From positions 1 through 11,551 of the forward strand of contig JAOTTZ010000023.1 in NCBI GenBank assembly GCA_029864165.1: 11,551 nucleotides of DNA. The letters are read 5' to 3'. The notes beneath the pieces were generated by a model that was not told where the DNA came from, searched no databases, and saw only the letters and a list, made by a program, of their open reading frames with translations. The translations under genes and the position numbers were made by a program. Positions 2,188-10,151 of the stretch are shown piece by piece (within the stretch, counting starts at the first letter, position 1; every line of letters starts with the position of its first letter). This stretch comes from Burkholderiaceae bacterium (lineage in GTDB: Bacteria > Pseudomonadota > Gammaproteobacteria > Burkholderiales > Burkholderiaceae_C).

Positions 2188-2883
2188 TTACGGGCTGGGT
2201 GGAGGCCCGCTGTTCGGGCAAGCGGGGTGATTCCCAGGTTCGAATGAAATGTTGTCGCTGGTGGGCGTGACGTTCAACGCCAGGTTCTTTCTGGTTTGCC
2301 AGGCCACGTTGTGGTCCTCGCACGACGTATCACCGGAGACGCCGAGTGCGCCAACGATTTTCCCGTTGACGTACAGGGCCAGCCCACCACCGAATACGTT
2401 GACGCCACCGATTTTCTTGCCGACCATGGGATCACGGTGGCTGCCATACTTGAACGACGGTCCCTTGTACGCAACCTTGGTGTCGACCGGATTGCTGTGC
2501 TGCAAACCGTACAGGCTGGCGCCCGGCTGCACCAGCGGATACAACTGAGCGGTAGAAAGCGCTAACCCGTCTAGGCTGAATGAGTTCGCGGTGTTGGCTT
2601 TCTCCGCGGATATCACGCGGCTGCCGGGCCATTGCGCCCCACGGTCGTCACCAGTGAACACGACCGCGCAAACAACGCCATCGCGATTGACCACGGTGCC
2701 CCACATATTGAGCCCAAAGCCGCCATTGCTCGACAACACGGCTGAGGACAGCGCAGCCTTGAGATCCGAATGAGACGGCAAGCCGCGGCAGGGTGAACGG
2801 TGATCGGCAAGCGCCGGTGCCACCGACAGCGTGAATATTGCGGCAGCGGCAATGTGCTTCGACAAGGACTTGTTGGTTATCAC
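2188..2883 (-). CDS. Secreted GlcG/HbpS-like (DUF336) haem-binding-family protein
   Basis: A 231-residue protein of the GlcG/HbpS (DUF336) family, which includes a haem-binding extracellular protein of Streptomyces and the glycolate-operon protein GlcG. The start is GTG 2883, set by a perfect AGGAGG six bases upstream and by a signal peptide directly after it (about residues 5-26, ending APALA). The frame is open further upstream, but that part has neither a signal sequence nor a ribosome binding site. The diagnostic glycine-rich core is GGVNVFGGGLALYVNGKI followed by VGALGVSGD. Four cysteines in the mature part could form disulfides in the periplasm. It carries a longer middle section than minimal GlcG proteins (about residues 60-140) and a Pro-rich tail. 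It converges on the nir genes and diverges from the caspase-STAND gene. The ligand cannot be read from sequence: haem is a family precedent, not shown here. Confidence 0.82.
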   Translation of the reverse strand: MITNKSLSKHIAAAAIFTLSVAPALADHRSPCRGLPSHSDLKAALSSAVLSSNGGFGLNMWGTVVNRDGVVCAVVFTGDDRGAQWPGSRVISAEKANTANSFSLDGLALSTAQLYPLVQPGASLYGLQHSNPVDTKVAYKGPSFKYGSHRDPMVGKKIGGVNVFGGGLALYVNGKIVGALGVSGDTSCEDHNVAWQTRKNLALNVTPTSDNISFEPGNHPACPNSGPPPSP

Positions 2884-3275
2884 TGGGTTCCTCCTATGTG
2901 TGGTTGAGAACGTTGGGGTGATCGCAGCCTTAAATGGCTTCCTGGCTAAACGGAAACGCCTATCGGCGACCGGAAAGCACGAATCGCCTTGCCCTGGCAG
3001 CGACCGGTTCAGTATACGGGGGACCAATCGGTGGTGTGCCCAATGCTCGACGCACGAGACCTGCAAGCCGGCCATGTCGTGCAAGTAGATTTCAAAACGC
3101 GGGCGGCAACGCATCGGGCTTGTGTAGTGTTAACAGGCCCTAACTGGTTGTGGTCAATCAGTCAGTCACGGTGAGCATCCCGGTAATCGGTGACGCCAAA
3201 CTTCTTGGTTCATACTGTTATTGGGTGAATAGCGAGAAAAGTTTCAAATCCAGCGCGGCGACTCGAAGGTAAATT
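2884..3275. other. 392-bp divergent intergenic region
   Basis: This stretch separates two divergently transcribed genes and must hold both promoters. Apart from the minus-strand Shine-Dalgarno I see no convincing paired -35/-10 boxes. On the minus strand a TATACT lies near 3011-3016 without a fitting -35. On the plus strand CATACT at 3211-3216 is similarly isolated. A weak GAAGG at 3265-3269 sits six bases before GTG 3276. The open frames here have no family resemblance, and I see no RNA gene. Confidence 0.5.
2890..2895 (-). promoter_or_regulatory. Perfect Shine-Dalgarno (AGGAGG) fixing a GTG start
   Basis: On the minus strand AGGAGG precedes GTG 2883 by six bases. This overrides the longer open frame reaching to 3114 and places the signal peptide at the N-terminus. 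Confidence 0.85.
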
Positions 3276-5945
3276 GTGAGCATGCGACGAATCCTGGTCA
3301 TCGGCTCTCAGTGCCACGCGCTCGGCAGGCTCGACTTCCTGCCTCGGGCTGCGCAGGATCTTTATCGCGTGATGTGTGACCCGGCTGTCGGTGCTTGCGC
3401 ACCGGCGCTTGAGGGCGATCTAGGCTTGCTCATCGACCCGTCGGTGGCCGCGACCAAAGAGGCTTTCAAGGCTGCCTACCGGCGCGCCGCGCAGGACGAA
3501 GCCACGCTGTTCCTGGCCTACGTCGGACACGGTGAGCACGTAGGCGACGATTTCTACCTGCTGCCTGCTGACGCCGAAAACCCTCCTGACGCCGACACGG
3601 CGGTACACCTTACCAGCTTGATCAAGGAAGTCCACCGGAAGACTCCCGGCACCGTAGATGGTTTGGGCGTGTTGCTCGACGCCTGTTATGCCGGTGTCGC
3701 CGGCTTCAGCGCCGCCCAAGCGTGGGTCAAGGAGCTGGGAGGAACCCTGCGTTTCGAGGTCCTCACGGCAGCGGCAGACCGTCCGGCCGCAAACGGCTGC
3801 TTCACCAAGACGCTCGTCGGCTTGTTGAAGGAAGGCGTGTCAGCGCAGCCTGCCGAGCATCTGCAATGCATGCACCTGCGCCCGCTGATCGAAAGCCTTT
3901 GTCCGAATCAGCTGGCACAAAACCCTTCGTATAACCCCGACCAAACGCTTTGGTTGGGTAAGAACACCGGCCGTCGCATCGAACCCTGGGCCCAAACGCC
4001 GCTGGCCGACGAGATTCAGCGGCTGACGGCGGCCTATCAGGCCACGCCTGCCCTGGCCGAGGTCGTGGCGCTGTCGCGCGCGCACCGCTGTATAGCGGTG
4101 GTGGCCGATGCAGGTGCGGGCAAGTCCGCGCTGACTGCGGCGCTCGGTTGGCCGAAAGTCGCAGGCGGCATGGTCGAGCCGGGCTTTGTTCACGCCATTT
4201 TCATGCTGAACGAGGCGACCACACCCCATGAGTTGGCGCGTGTGCTCGCGGCGCAGCTGGCGCGTGCCGTACCGGGCTTCGCGGCAGCGCAGCAGAGTTT
4301 TGCGCGTGCAACGCCCTACGACGAACAACTGCGTCTGGGCCCGTTGGACAAGCAGCTCGTCGGTCCGCTCAAGCGCGTGGCGCCTGCCGCCGAGGTGCGA
4401 TTGGTGATCGACGCGCTAGATCGTCTGTCCACCAGCGCAACGGTGTCGGTCATGGAGGCCTTAAATACCTTGGTCGAACAGCCCTTGATTCGCCTGGTAC
4501 TGGCCGCAAGGCCTGACACCGAGCTTCCCGCGACGGCACACACCTACCGGCTCGGCCCGGCAACCCAAGATCAGGTGCAGCACTACCTCGCGCTGCGCGC
4601 CGTTGCGCCGGCGCGGCAGGATGAAGTCGTTGCTGCAGCCCAAGGCAACTGGCTGGTGGCTAGAGTGCTCGCCGACCTGCTGCGTAGCGACACCGAGGCG
4701 CCGACCCGTGCCGGCCAGATCACCCTCGGCGACGCTTTTGACGAAATGCTCGCGCGCTGCGCCGAGCGTCACCGCCAAGACTTGCACCCGGCGCTTGCGC
4801 TGCTGGCCGCTGCGGGCGCGGGGCCGGTTGTGCCGCTTGCGCTGCTGTGCGCAGCCAGTGAACGGCTGGCGGGGCCAAAGACCGGTGCGCGCATGCGCGA
4901 CTTGTTGGTGGCCTTGCGCGGTCTCGTGACGAGGGGGGCCGCCGGAACCGACGACGAACACGTTGGGCTGTTTCACCAGAAGTTTGTGGACCACGTGCTG
5001 GAGCGCTTTGCACCGCAAGTGCGCGACGCGCACGGCGCGCTGGTGCAGAGCATCGAAACGCTGATCCCTACTTCTGACGCGCCGATGGAAATGAATCGCG
5101 GCATCGCGCGCTATGCCTTCGAACGCGGGGCCGAGCACCTGTGGCAGCTTGGCGAGTTCGAAAAAGCACTTCAATCGCTGAATGACCGGAAATCACCAGT
5201 TCCCAGGGAGAACCTGCGGCGTTGGCGGCCATGGCACGAGCGAGTCGAATCTTCTTTTGGGCCGGGCCATCTCGACACGCTGAGAATGCGCAATAACATC
5301 GCGCACTTGACTGGTCAGTGCGGCGACGCTCGCGAGGCGCTGCGCCTGTTCGAGGCACTGCTGCTCGACCACACGCGCGTGCTCGGGCAGGACCATCCCC
5401 ACACGCTGACAACGCGCAGCCACATCGCGTACTGGACTGGTCAGTGCGGCGACTCTCGCGAGGCGCTGCGCCTGTCCGAGGCACTGCTGCCCGATCACAC
5501 GCGTGTGCTCGGGCAGGACCATCCCGACACGCTGACAACGCGCAACAACATCGCGTACTGGACTGATCAGTGCAGCGACGCTCGCGAGGCGCTGCGCCTG
5601 TTCGAGGCACTGCTGCCCGACGGCTTGCGTGTGCTTAGACCGGACCATCCCGACACGCTGATAACGCGCGGCAACATCGCGTACTTGACTGGTCAGTGCG
5701 GCGACGCTCGCGAGGCGCTGCGCCTGTTCGAGGCACTGCTGCCCGACCACACGCGCGTGCTCGGGCAGGACCATCCCGACACGCTGACAACGCGCGACAA
5801 CATCGCGTACTGGACCGGTCAGTGGGGCGACGCTCGCGAGGCGCTGCGCCTGTCCGAAGCGCTGCTGCCCGACCTCACGCGCGTGCTCGGGCCGGACCAC
5901 CTGGCTACCCAGGTTATTCGCGACAGGATTGAATCCCTTCGCTGA
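3276..5945 (+). CDS. Caspase-like protease / STAND NTPase / TPR protein
   Basis: An 889-residue three-part protein with no signal peptide, so probably cytosolic. Residues 4 to about 220 form a caspase-like (clan CD, C14-type) protease: RILVIGSQ as first strand, catalytic His85 in YVGHGEH and catalytic Cys137 in LLDACYAG. Residues about 250-500 form a P-loop STAND/NACHT-like NTPase: Walker A ADAGAGKS (Lys283), Walker B LVIDALD (Asp379, Asp382) and LAARPD (Arg412), followed by a helical region. Residues 667-876 are five 42-residue TPRs of the kinesin-light-chain/TPR_10-12 type, plus a final half repeat. By analogy to known STAND proteins, the TPRs would sense a ligand, the NTPase would oligomerise and the caspase would cut a target, as in prokaryotic immune or cell-death systems. 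GTG 3276 has GAAGG six bases upstream; ATG 3282 is the alternative. The substrate is unknown. A convergent alpha/beta-hydrolase follows. Confidence 0.9.
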   Translation: MSMRRILVIGSQCHALGRLDFLPRAAQDLYRVMCDPAVGACAPALEGDLGLLIDPSVAATKEAFKAAYRRAAQDEATLFLAYVGHGEHVGDDFYLLPADAENPPDADTAVHLTSLIKEVHRKTPGTVDGLGVLLDACYAGVAGFSAAQAWVKELGGTLRFEVLTAAADRPAANGCFTKTLVGLLKEGVSAQPAEHLQCMHLRPLIESLCPNQLAQNPSYNPDQTLWLGKNTGRRIEPWAQTPLADEIQRLTAAYQATPALAEVVALSRAHRCIAVVADAGAGKSALTAALGWPKVAGGMVEPGFVHAIFMLNEATTPHELARVLAAQLARAVPGFAAAQQSFARATPYDEQLRLGPLDKQLVGPLKRVAPAAEVRLVIDALDRLSTSATVSVMEALNTLVEQPLIRLVLAARPDTELPATAHTYRLGPATQDQVQHYLALRAVAPARQDEVVAAAQGNWLVARVLADLLRSDTEAPTRAGQITLGDAFDEMLARCAERHRQDLHPALALLAAAGAGPVVPLALLCAASERLAGPKTGARMRDLLVALRGLVTRGAAGTDDEHVGLFHQKFVDHVLERFAPQVRDAHGALVQSIETLIPTSDAPMEMNRGIARYAFERGAEHLWQLGEFEKALQSLNDRKSPVPRENLRRWRPWHERVESSFGPGHLDTLRMRNNIAHLTGQCGDAREALRLFEALLLDHTRVLGQDHPHTLTTRSHIAYWTGQCGDSREALRLSEALLPDHTRVLGQDHPDTLTTRNNIAYWTDQCSDAREALRLFEALLPDGLRVLRPDHPDTLITRGNIAYLTGQCGDAREALRLFEALLPDHTRVLGQDHPDTLTTRDNIAYWTGQWGDAREALRLSEALLPDLTRVLGPDHLATQVIRDRIESLR
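5274..5903 (+). repeat. Five tandem 126-bp repeats encoding TPRs
   Basis: Five head-to-tail 126-bp units (starting 5274, 5400, 5526, 5652 and 5778) each encode one 42-residue TPR. Blocks such as CTGGTCAGTGCGGCGAC and GCTCGCGAGGCGCTGCGCCT recur with exact 126-bp spacing (for example 5311 and 5437). Most units are almost identical in DNA, silent sites included, which points to recent expansion or gene conversion. Differences gather at a few residues: repeat positions 7-8, 11-12 and 26, and the segment 33-38. Four units carry a Cys in TGQCGD or a close variant; the fifth has Trp there. Confidence 0.95.
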
Positions 5946-5977
5946 CGTGTTCAGCATCAAACAGAGACTGGCACCCA

Positions 5978-6002
5978 CGACAGCGATCCAAGTTCGCTGT
6001 TG
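5978..6002. terminator. Hairpin between convergent caspase-STAND and hydrolase genes
   Basis: ACAGCGA, a seven-base loop TCCAAGT, then TCGCTGT, extended by one G-T and one C-G pair. It lies between the two convergent stop codons (5945 and 6035). No T-run follows on either strand, so a shared terminator is plausible but weakly supported. Confidence 0.4.
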
Positions 6003-6034
6003 CGCCGTACCCGGATCCGCATTGGCTCGTCGGC

Positions 6035-6970
6035 TCAGCGGCTGTAGAGCTCGCCGATCGGTTGACCCAGCTGAGACTTGCCGAGGTAGAAGTCGGCCTT
6101 GTGCGGCTGGGCACCGTTGTCCACGGTGTACCCACTTTCAAAGACGGCGTTTGCCGGCATGCCGGTGCCGAACAGGGGGTTCAGGTTGGGCTCGGCGGCG
6201 ATGAAGTCGTCGCGGTCTGCCACGTTGACCCAGCGGCTGACGGTGGGCGGAAAGCCAGGCGGTTGCGGTCGCAGCCGCTGGTAGACAAGGGTTTGCAGCC
6301 CCAGCGGCGAGCCCAGCGTGATCAACAGCGGCAGCGGCAGCGGTTGCCGTAGGCGTTGCACGGCCTCGTAAGCGACCACCGACCCGAGCGAGTGCCCGAT
6401 CACGGCCTTGGTCTCAGGGCCGATCAACTTCGACACGGCATCCAGCGCTGACGAGCGCACCACTTCGTCGGTGAAGTAGCGGGTCACCTGGGCGAGCGCG
6501 CGATTGACAAATCGCTCAGCGAAACCCATACCCAAGGGCGCAAACCAGGCAATTTTGGCCAAACCGGCGATGGCGCTGCGAACCGCGCTGCCCGCGCCTT
6601 GCTCTACACCCATCTGGCCCGACACGTAGGCCAACTCTCTTTGGCCTGTGCGCATGGCCGTTTTCCTGCTGGCCCGCTCGGCGGCGTGTTGCAGCCATTC
6701 GACGGCCAAGCGCTCGGCAAACGCAGATTCCTCGGCAGTGAAGTCTCCTGGGTCGCCGCCTTGCTGGTTGGGTGAGAGAAACAGCGCGCCGTAATACGCC
6801 ATGCGCGCTTCGATACTTCCGGGTCCGCGAACGCGCCAGATGCGATCAGCGACTTGCGGGAAACCCGCCATCCGAACCCCGCCCGCCAGCGCCGGCAGCC
6901 AAGCGGCTTCGAGCTTGTCGGCAGTTTCCTGCTCTTGGCCGATGCCGTGAACCAGAACAATCTCCGCCAT
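6035..6970 (-). CDS. Alpha/beta-hydrolase (lipase/esterase-like), convergent with the caspase-STAND gene
   Basis: A 311-residue alpha/beta-hydrolase. ATG 6970 is preferred over an in-frame TTG at 6994 because GGAG lies five bases upstream and the first beta strand (EIVLVHGIGQ) follows directly. The HGIG oxyanion-type motif is at residues 8-11, the nucleophile elbow GHSLGS places Ser194, the acid is probably Asp252 or Asp254 in VADRDDF, and His290 in QPHKADF completes the triad. No signal peptide is present, so it should act in the cytosol. Substrate cannot be read; lipid or thioester hydrolysis is typical of the fold. It ends 89 bases from the caspase-STAND stop, tail to tail, so the two are not one operon, although they may travel together. 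The central region (residues about 70-150) has alternating polar and hydrophobic helical segments, including a hydrophobic stretch around IAWFAPLGMGF that might contact membrane. Confidence 0.85.
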   Translation of the reverse strand: MAEIVLVHGIGQEQETADKLEAAWLPALAGGVRMAGFPQVADRIWRVRGPGSIEARMAYYGALFLSPNQQGGDPGDFTAEESAFAERLAVEWLQHAAERASRKTAMRTGQRELAYVSGQMGVEQGAGSAVRSAIAGLAKIAWFAPLGMGFAERFVNRALAQVTRYFTDEVVRSSALDAVSKLIGPETKAVIGHSLGSVVAYEAVQRLRQPLPLPLLITLGSPLGLQTLVYQRLRPQPPGFPPTVSRWVNVADRDDFIAAEPNLNPLFGTGMPANAVFESGYTVDNGAQPHKADFYLGKSQLGQPIGELYSR

Positions 6971-7081: not shown

Positions 7082-7517
7082 AAAAGCTGGGGCCAGCCCA
7101 GAGATGAGGCCCAGCCTTGATTTTGAACCAATCGCTCGGTAAGGTCTCAAGTAACCGGTACAAACCAAGAAGACAAACTGCCGCAAGAGGGATACGTCGC
7201 AACGCTTCTTGAGCGTAGCCAGTTTTCCGCCTGGCTGGAGTTGACCGCTGCCTACGATGTCAAAACTACTCGTGGCGCATTGCTACTACCTCTGACTACG
7301 CAGCGCGTGGAACAGCGCGTAGCGCCGCGTCAGCCTGGCATAGCCACGCGTTTAAGCGCCGATCCGGCCCTGACTTCTGGGAACAACTTATCGAGCGACA
7401 CCGAACGGGTGTTGTCGACGACGATACGGGCATGGAACCGGCGCAGTTCACGAGGCTCGTGTACGCCGCACGAGTGTGCAATCACGCCAACTTCGTGCCG
7501 CATGTTACGGCAGTAGC
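7082..7517. repeat. Left copy of ~0.42-kb direct repeat (gltB-like 3' end plus downstream DNA)
   Basis: Aligns in the same orientation with 9733-10151. Homology begins at AAAAGCTGGGG and ends at CATGTTACGGCAGTAGC. I count about 28 substitutions by eye, roughly 93 % identity, plus one 17-base length difference near 7096 where this copy has extra bases. Bases 7330-7517 correspond to the 3' end of the glutamate-synthase-like gene and 7082-7329 to its downstream flank. Substitutions in the coding part are mostly silent or conservative in the minus-strand frame. I see no separate gene in 7082-7329. Confidence 0.92.
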
Positions 7518-7872
7518 CCCACACCTCGTTGGGCTGGCTCGGTAGCAGCAGCGGCTGCCGCTCGGGGACGGACAGCTTCTTGCGTCGACGCTGGCGCACC
7601 ATGAGGCCTTCTTCCCGGTACAGCCGGTAGGTACGTTTGACGTTGATGGCCCAGCCCTGACGGGTCAGCCTGTCGTGCAGCATTCGGTAGCCGTGGCGGC
7701 GGTGCTGGCCGGCGAGCTCCTTCAGGCGCTCGCGCAGCTTGCTGTTGCCGTCGTCGCGAGGTTGGTAGCGCAGGACGCTGGCGCTGATGCCCACCAGCTT
7801 CAACGCCATACGTTCGCTCAGGCTCAGAGCCTTGAACTCTTGCACTACCTCGCGCCGTGCCGTCATGGCCAC
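7330..7872 (-). pseudogene. Chimeric ORF: truncated IS3 orfB fused in frame to a glutamate-synthase-like C-terminus
   Basis: A 180-codon open frame made of two unrelated parts. The first ~119 residues (GTG 7872 or ATG 7866 start) are the N-terminal part of an IS3-family OrfB, with the HTH_21-type stretch KELAGQHRRHGYRMLHDRL and the PSQPNEVW segment that normally precedes the first Asp of the DDE integrase core. The match stops there. The rest, from YCRNM to the stop at 7330, is the C-terminus of the FMN-binding glutamate-synthase family, nearly identical to the end of the intact gene at 9964. All DDE residues and the FMN and Fe-S parts are missing, so neither parent activity is possible. The junction near 7517 keeps frame. 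It is most likely debris of an IS-adjacent deletion; a stable small chimeric protein cannot be excluded. Confidence 0.85.
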
Positions 7873-9732: not shown

Positions 9733-10151
9733 AAAAGCTGGGGCCAGGCCTTGAGTTTGAACCAATCGCCCGGTAAGGTCTCAAGTAACCGGCGCACGCC
9801 AAGGAGACAAACTGCCGCAAGAGGGATATGTCGCAACGCTTCTTGAGCGTAGCCCGCGTGCCGCCTGGCTGGCGTTGACCGTTGCCTACGATGTAAAAAC
9901 TACACGTGGCGCATCGCTACTACCTGTGACTACGCAGCGCGTGGAACAGCGCGTAGCGCCGCGTCAGCCTGGCATAGCCACGCGTTTAAGCACCGATCCG
10001 GCCCTGACGTCTGGGTACAACTTATCGAGCGACACCGAACGGCAGTTGTCGACGACGATACGGGCATGGAACCGGCGCAGTCCGCGCGGCTCGTGTACGC
10101 CGCACGAGTGTGCAATCACGCCAACCTCGTGCTGCATGTTACGGCAGTAGC
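9733..10151. repeat. Right copy of ~0.42-kb direct repeat
   Basis: Same orientation as 7082-7517, about 93 % identical by eye. It spans the last ~62 codons of the glutamate-synthase-like gene (9964-10151) and 231 bases beyond its stop. The gene continues without a break past 10151, so this copy is the probable source arrangement and the left one the rearranged copy. Confidence 0.92.

Follow-up and report, generated by a model that had tools for sequence, protein, structure and literature searches.

The gene at positions 3276–5945 of the window (the whole stretch of DNA analysed here, 11,551 nucleotides and an entire contig) encodes a protein that joins a caspase-like domain, a STAND ATPase and a TPR array in one chain, and the α/β hydrolase gene facing it on the other strand is its conserved partner. 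The sequence-only reading had described a single-protein module and had left the hydrolase unmentioned, and this part of it has to be revised. We consider it about an even bet that the two genes form an NLR-like conflict system, anti-phage or for programmed death, in which TPR sensing would lead to STAND assembly, and the caspase would then activate a hydrolase that damages membrane lipids. The following features were assigned.

2-2086: terminal part of a copper nitrite reductase gene fused to cytochrome c, followed by a gene with FGE-sulfatase domain and a SCO1/SenC gene (profile scans)
2188-3114: HbpS-like gene, divergent from the caspase gene (Pfam scan)
3276..5945, + strand: caspase-STAND-TPR protein, 889 aa, GTG start (ORF, profile scans, structure model)
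3276..3965, + strand: caspase-like domain of paracaspase/metacaspase fold, residues 1-230 (model, fold match, conservation)
3528-3530 and 3684-3686, + strand: codons of His85 and Cys137 in the caspase-like domain, the latter in a D135-x-C137 motif
3999..5075, + strand: STAND/NACHT-like ATPase, residues about 242-600 (Pfam scan, alignment, model, fold match)
4104-4127 and 4410-4421, + strand: Walker A (ADAGAGKS) and the end of Walker B (D379-D382) of the STAND ATPase
5256..5942, + strand: TPR sensor array, residues 661-889 (Pfam scan, repeat analysis, fold match)
5259-5888, + strand: five DNA repeat units of 126 bp within the TPR array
5946..6034: 89-bp spacer between the facing stop codons, with no terminator-like site listed inside
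6035..6970, - strand: partner α/β hydrolase, 311 aa (the longest ORF extends to 6994), adjoining the caspase gene
6389-6391, - strand: codon of the nucleophile Ser194 in the GHSLGS motif of the hydrolase, in which Asp255 and His290 are also conserved

Architecture and conservation of the large protein

The structure of the 889-aa ORF was modelled with high confidence (pLDDT 90.7). Its N-terminal part is predicted to adopt a MALT1/metacaspase-like fold, the STAND part resembles Apaf-1, NLRP3 and MalT, and the C-terminal repeats match TPRs of the kinesin light chain type. At least 125 homologues were found, of which 120 were listed and 105 aligned by BLAST to residues 1-640; leaving out 28 partial ones, 77 span this region. 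In all 77, the window protein included, H85, C137, D135, G282-K283-S284 and D379 are conserved, while D382 is present in 75 and replaced by Glu in the other two. A second alignment of 54 rows, which also included more distant and truncated sequences, again had D135, C137, K283 and D379 invariant, and H85 in more than 90%. D135 precedes the catalytic Cys by two residues, and in proteases of the MALT1/metacaspase type an Asp at this position binds Arg or Lys at P1. Thus, the protein has both the caspase fold and the His/Cys dyad of a clan CD protease, and the P-loop, Walker B, NLR-type fold and C-terminal repeats of a STAND/NLR-like protein. The caspase-like protease with intact His85/Cys137, the STAND/NACHT-like switch with intact Walker A and B, the TPR sensor array and their effector-switch-sensor order, all proposed from the sequence alone, are borne out by structure and conservation.

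Profile databases recognised the protein in part. Pfam Peptidase_C14 (PF00656) did not match it at E ≤ 0.001 and is among the precomputed domains of 4 of the 120 relatives among the matches listed; AAA_22 and NPHP3_N scored above the Pfam cut-off, NACHT and nSTAND1 below it. None of the families in PADLOC-DB 2.0.0 matched either the caspase protein or the hydrolase at E ≤ 0.1.

Between the two closest loci, dN/dS was 0.07 for the caspase, 0.18 for the STAND part, 0.23 for the TPRs and 0.10 for the hydrolase. Over six locus pairs, the ranges were 0.06–0.09 (caspase) and 0.08–0.14 (hydrolase), with five calculable pairs each, 0.14–0.18 (STAND; 6/6 pairs) and 0.10–0.23 (TPR; five calculable pairs); values for the window pair are near saturation. 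Judging from these sequence comparisons, the hydrolase is under purifying selection. At the seven loci described below, the large protein is 889 to 1,148 residues long, and it reaches 1,368 among the homologues listed, mostly owing to differences in the number of TPRs. The five units in the window differ by only 11–17 nucleotides, with a pN/pS between units of 1.08, and appear to have been recently copied or homogenised. Diversifying selection on the TPRs was considered and rejected, as their dN/dS between orthologues overlaps that of the STAND part. The array is thus taken to have a variable copy number and near-identical units, and neither positive selection nor clearly relaxed constraint is claimed; such variation would fit a changeable sensor and is no proof of positive selection. 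Across 400 units from 70 proteins, the most variable positions were 16, 32, 9, 20 and 12, of which 9, 12, 16 and 20 probably line one face of a helix.

Pairing of the caspase and hydrolase genes

In the window and in the six relatives with surrounding sequence (7/7 loci), the caspase and hydrolase genes lie tail to tail, the stop codons being 89 bp apart in the window, 28 bp in a Nitrosospira MAG (L006), 7 bp in Nitrosospira NpAV (L007), 4 bp in Duganella sacchari (L008), 21 bp in Nitrosovibrio tenuis (L009), and 6 and 7 bp in genomes G920 (L020) and G924 (L021). Given this facing layout, the two genes do not belong to one operon in the window. The large protein was found (E ≤ 1e-20) in 5 of the 125 genomes of the family to which NpAV belongs, and the same five also have the hydrolase, at 71–73% identity; this coincidence would have a chance of 1 in 2.3e8 if the genomes were independent, but the five are related and hence not independent. 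Weaker hydrolase matches occurred in seven more of these genomes. One of them (G919; 34% identity) lies directly upstream of a gene for a caspase-WD40 protein; the other six are partial and lie inside frames of 732–814 residues, of which the one that was scanned is a hydrolase-subtilase fusion.

Contig sizes also link the two families. Among 101 caspase homologues (P0001–P0101 of the 120 listed), 20 come from assemblies whose longest contig is exactly as long as that of some of the 120 hydrolase homologues among the matches listed, compared with 0.23 per shifted length by chance, although equal sizes do not prove one shared contig and non-matches mean little. For contigs of at least 8 kb, 18 of 54 caspase contigs were matched in size by a hydrolase contig, versus 0.03 for shifted lengths.

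More distant hydrolase relatives were found on plasmids, in 22 records, of which 18 were fetched, the other four being likely duplicates by organism and position. In 17 of the 18, two of them look-alikes (L049 and L050), the adjoining gene on the same strand encodes a caspase domain; no caspase was seen beside the hydrolase in the remaining record (L047). Fourteen of these caspases were recognised by profile with the dyad aligned, using a profile extended by its own hits (the family profile alone gave 13/18 at E ≤ 0.01), and three (L042, L046 and L052) had weak profile scores and GHG/AHG/SHG and DCC/DLC motifs that were read in the sequence. The hydrolase gene precedes the caspase gene in 12 of the 17 records (actinomycetes and Leptolyngbya) and follows it in five (three rhizobia, Streptomyces atratus and one Embleya). 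With the facing layout there are thus three gene orders, which means that the pairing outlives changes in order.

The pair is also present or absent as a unit. In genome G932, which does not belong to the five carriers, the upstream ∼250-aa gene, a ∼1,020-aa oxidase-like gene and a GAF gene are arranged as in G924, with BLASTN matches on both sides of the site, and exactly the caspase and hydrolase genes are missing between these neighbors; the unit therefore consists of two genes. None of the other three non-carrier loci retrieved via the GAF gene (L069-L071) had the G924-type neighborhood. Three candidates for further parts were dismissed: the upstream ∼250-aa gene of the Nitrosospira-type loci (no Pfam match) and the multicopper/galactose-oxidase-like gene, as they adjoin each other in the pair-less G932, and the KAP/TIR genes, as they are present at two loci only.

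These observations bear on whether the caspase acts alone, killing the cell by cutting host proteins, with the hydrolase as its antidote, its regulator or a lucky neighbor. Many STAND effectors do work singly, and a hydrolase on the opposite strand can be regulated apart; yet a pairing that persists through facing (7/7), hydrolase-first (12/17) and caspase-first (5/17) orders, that comes and goes as a unit and in which the hydrolase is kept by purifying selection makes this explanation unlikely.

Distribution, genomic settings and known systems

Occurrence of the caspase-STAND-TPR protein is very patchy. Beside the 5/125 genomes of the Nitrosospira family, a sample of 399 genomes of the order contained a single carrier, as did a sample of 398 genomes of the phylum, and each time this carrier was the genome of the window itself. 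A search of genome contigs with the single protein returned no related loci; an alignment-based search returned eight, of which L006–L009 are true relatives and L010–L013, short matches to the caspase only, were set aside apart from one BLAST comparison. Viral contigs gave no match to the large protein, and phage records gave three, all in Wolbachia phage WO and confined to residues 639-850. When plasmids were searched with the whole protein, none of the 144 records covered 80% of it, and 20 among the matches listed mainly comprised the TPR part.

The Duganella sacchari pair is flanked by Zorya type II genes (ZorA2, E = 5.5e-183; ZorB2, 4.4e-90; ZorE2, 4.5e-116; together with an NA37 gene) on one side and Tn7-like genes (TnsA, TnsB-like, TniB and TniQ) on the other, a mobile, defence-type setting in this one genome. 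A KAP-NTPase gene is found near the pair in G920 (L020:14617-18291) and G924 (L021:4644-8842); that of G924 also encodes a TIR domain, with another, small ORF there matching TIR weakly. Plasmid neighbors of the distant relatives include a PDC-S28 helicase (L044) and UvrD helicases of the GajB/DRT type (L043 and L054), in a scan of ten proteins picked by eye, four of them without a match, which is not an enrichment test. In the window, no known defence gene was seen, in agreement with the first reading.

The defence or programmed-death role that had been proposed thus gains indirect support, from the patchy distribution, the presence or absence as a unit, the Zorya II and Tn7-like neighbors of one relative and the KAP-NTPases (one with TIR) of two. 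Consistent embedding of the homologues among housekeeping genes would speak against it, and here the outcome is mixed: the loci L007, L009, L020 and L021 share neighbors that resemble ABC-transporter genes by eye (three also have a GAF protein), and the site itself varies. The pair might accordingly act outside defence, in cell death linked to stress or to kin recognition or in ordinary signaling; ordinary-looking common neighbors at these four Nitrosospira-type loci would suit such a function, as would fungal proteins of similar layout, to which PMC10907252 ascribes a role in heterokaryon incompatibility. The patchiness, the Duganella setting and the variable number of near-identical repeats argue against it, and we regard it as rather improbable.

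A caspase with a neighboring α/β hydrolase is not new in itself. According to Kaur et al (2020; PMC7159879), comparative genomics revealed this pairing in the VMAP (vWA-MoxR) ternary systems, where the neighbor is obligate. The window pair differs in that its caspase is part of a STAND-TPR protein, that the genes face each other and that no VMAP, MoxR or vWA component was found among the 10 ORFs scanned in the window; in distant relatives from Streptomyces, the caspase is fused to VMAP-M2, with an AAA/MoxR gene adjoining. PMC12799240 describes protease-gated nucleases, namely Canu (caspase-nuclease) with the caspase-activated CanC, and nuclease-protease pairs of Hachiman and AVAST. These share with the window a MALT1-like caspase beside a partner enzyme and a proposed activation by cutting, which for the window is put forward by analogy. 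The partner in Canu is an MBL-fold nuclease, whereas it is an α/β hydrolase here; no MBL-fold nuclease was found among the 10 ORFs, and no Ig-like domain of the kind described in that paper was detected in the window protein by Pfam. A further related group is that of STAND NTPases with TPR sensors, in which MalT, the archaeal STAND-TPR protein 6mfv, Avs and other bacterial NLRs, and Apaf-1 are placed; unlike these, the window protein carries its effector, a caspase, at the N-terminus of the same chain, and has no PADLOC match. The nearest named caspase profile, that of EACC1-associated caspases (NCBIfam NF047832, caspase_w_EACC1), gave 42.8 of the required 140 bits, and the TPR protein of FxSxx-COOH systems (NF040586), which resembles the TPR part alone, 150.7 of 300; both scores are below the cut-off.

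The free-standing, NLR-like two-gene form and its facing layout look new. Among the top-ranked titles and abstract openings of open-licence PMC articles, neither a STAND-TPR caspase forming a two-gene unit with this hydrolase nor the facing layout was found, although supplementary tables of Kaur et al (2020) may list some such cases; nor did the top matches there show one hydrolase family working with TPR, WD40 and VMAP sensors alike and occurring in a subtilase fusion.

Proposed mechanism and minor observations

The hydrolase has the fold, the nucleophile elbow and the Ser-Asp-His set of a lipase-like α/β hydrolase. Ser194 and Asp255 are conserved in 120/120 and His290 in 119/120 homologues among the matches listed (one short homologue was excluded). 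The best fold matches were DDHD domains, followed by SOBER1, esterases and lysosomal phospholipase A2. Because Foldseek gave no match at E ≤ 0.001 and many esterases tie within 1–2 Z, the model points only weakly to a lipid as the substrate; an alternative role in resetting or anchoring the caspase complex, as a protein deacylase, a thioesterase or an enzyme that degrades a signal, strikes us as quite unlikely all the same. The hydrolase also has a largely helical cap, some 120 residues long, with conserved basic residues near low-confidence stretches, R131 (119/120 homologues among the matches listed) and K/R139 (115/120), which are candidates for the cleavage site and only that, as other Arg residues are conserved too.

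Switches of the Apaf-1/NLRP3 type are well established. The conflict system favored here is modeled on these switches and on Kaur et al (2020), PMC12799240 and a 2021 paper in which membrane lipids are listed as the target of α/β hydrolases (PMC8195603). The TPR array would recognize a trigger, probably a protein of an invader, and thereby release the STAND ATPase for ring-like assembly, bringing the N-terminal caspases together. Once active, the caspase, with the Arg/Lys preference of the paracaspase/metacaspase type, would cut the hydrolase, which may be held inactive by its cap until then; the freed hydrolase would attack membrane lipids, and the cell would die or stop growing. A broader proposal is more tentative, and we lean somewhat against it: the large protein would be an apoptosome in a single bacterial chain, its caspase turning on a lipase, and bacteria would thus have one more type of protease-gated death enzyme in addition to gasdermin pores and MBL nucleases. 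STAND-TPR, WD40 and VMAP sensors, and subtilases as well, would share the hydrolase as their unchanging executioner, and the facing layout would keep the transcripts of switch and executioner apart or mutually silencing. If the mechanism holds, a single bacterial protein would unite the sensor, an apoptosome-like switch and the caspase, with its likely executioner named, and what bacterial caspases cut, and why, would become testable with two genes.

Related combinations were seen elsewhere. In G873 (L030:940-3378), an 813-aa protein is a fusion of an α/β hydrolase domain and a subtilase (Peptidase_S8), which hints that a related hydrolase partner can also be served by proteases of another class. 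On a Sinorhizobium medicae plasmid (L057:1-6864), genes annotated as MBL-fold hydrolase and S8 protease adjoin a caspase and α/β hydrolase pair, so that two protease-partner pairs lie side by side. The caspase-WD40 protein of G919 (L037:3907-8992; Nitrosospira genus set) has an Apaf-1-like layout and its own co-directional hydrolase.

As to the remainder of the window, positions 2-2086 are a probable nirK-nirV-type cluster, one gene of which we take to be nirV. The HbpS-like gene occupies the place that the ∼250-aa gene without Pfam match has in the Nitrosospira-type loci. A 416-bp direct repeat (7102-7517 and 9736-10151; 92% identical) flanks a lactonase-like gene and remnants of an IS3 transposase, and since it carries the end of an FMN/glutamate-synthase-like ORF, transposase sequence and this end are joined in a chimaeric frame at 7330-7872.
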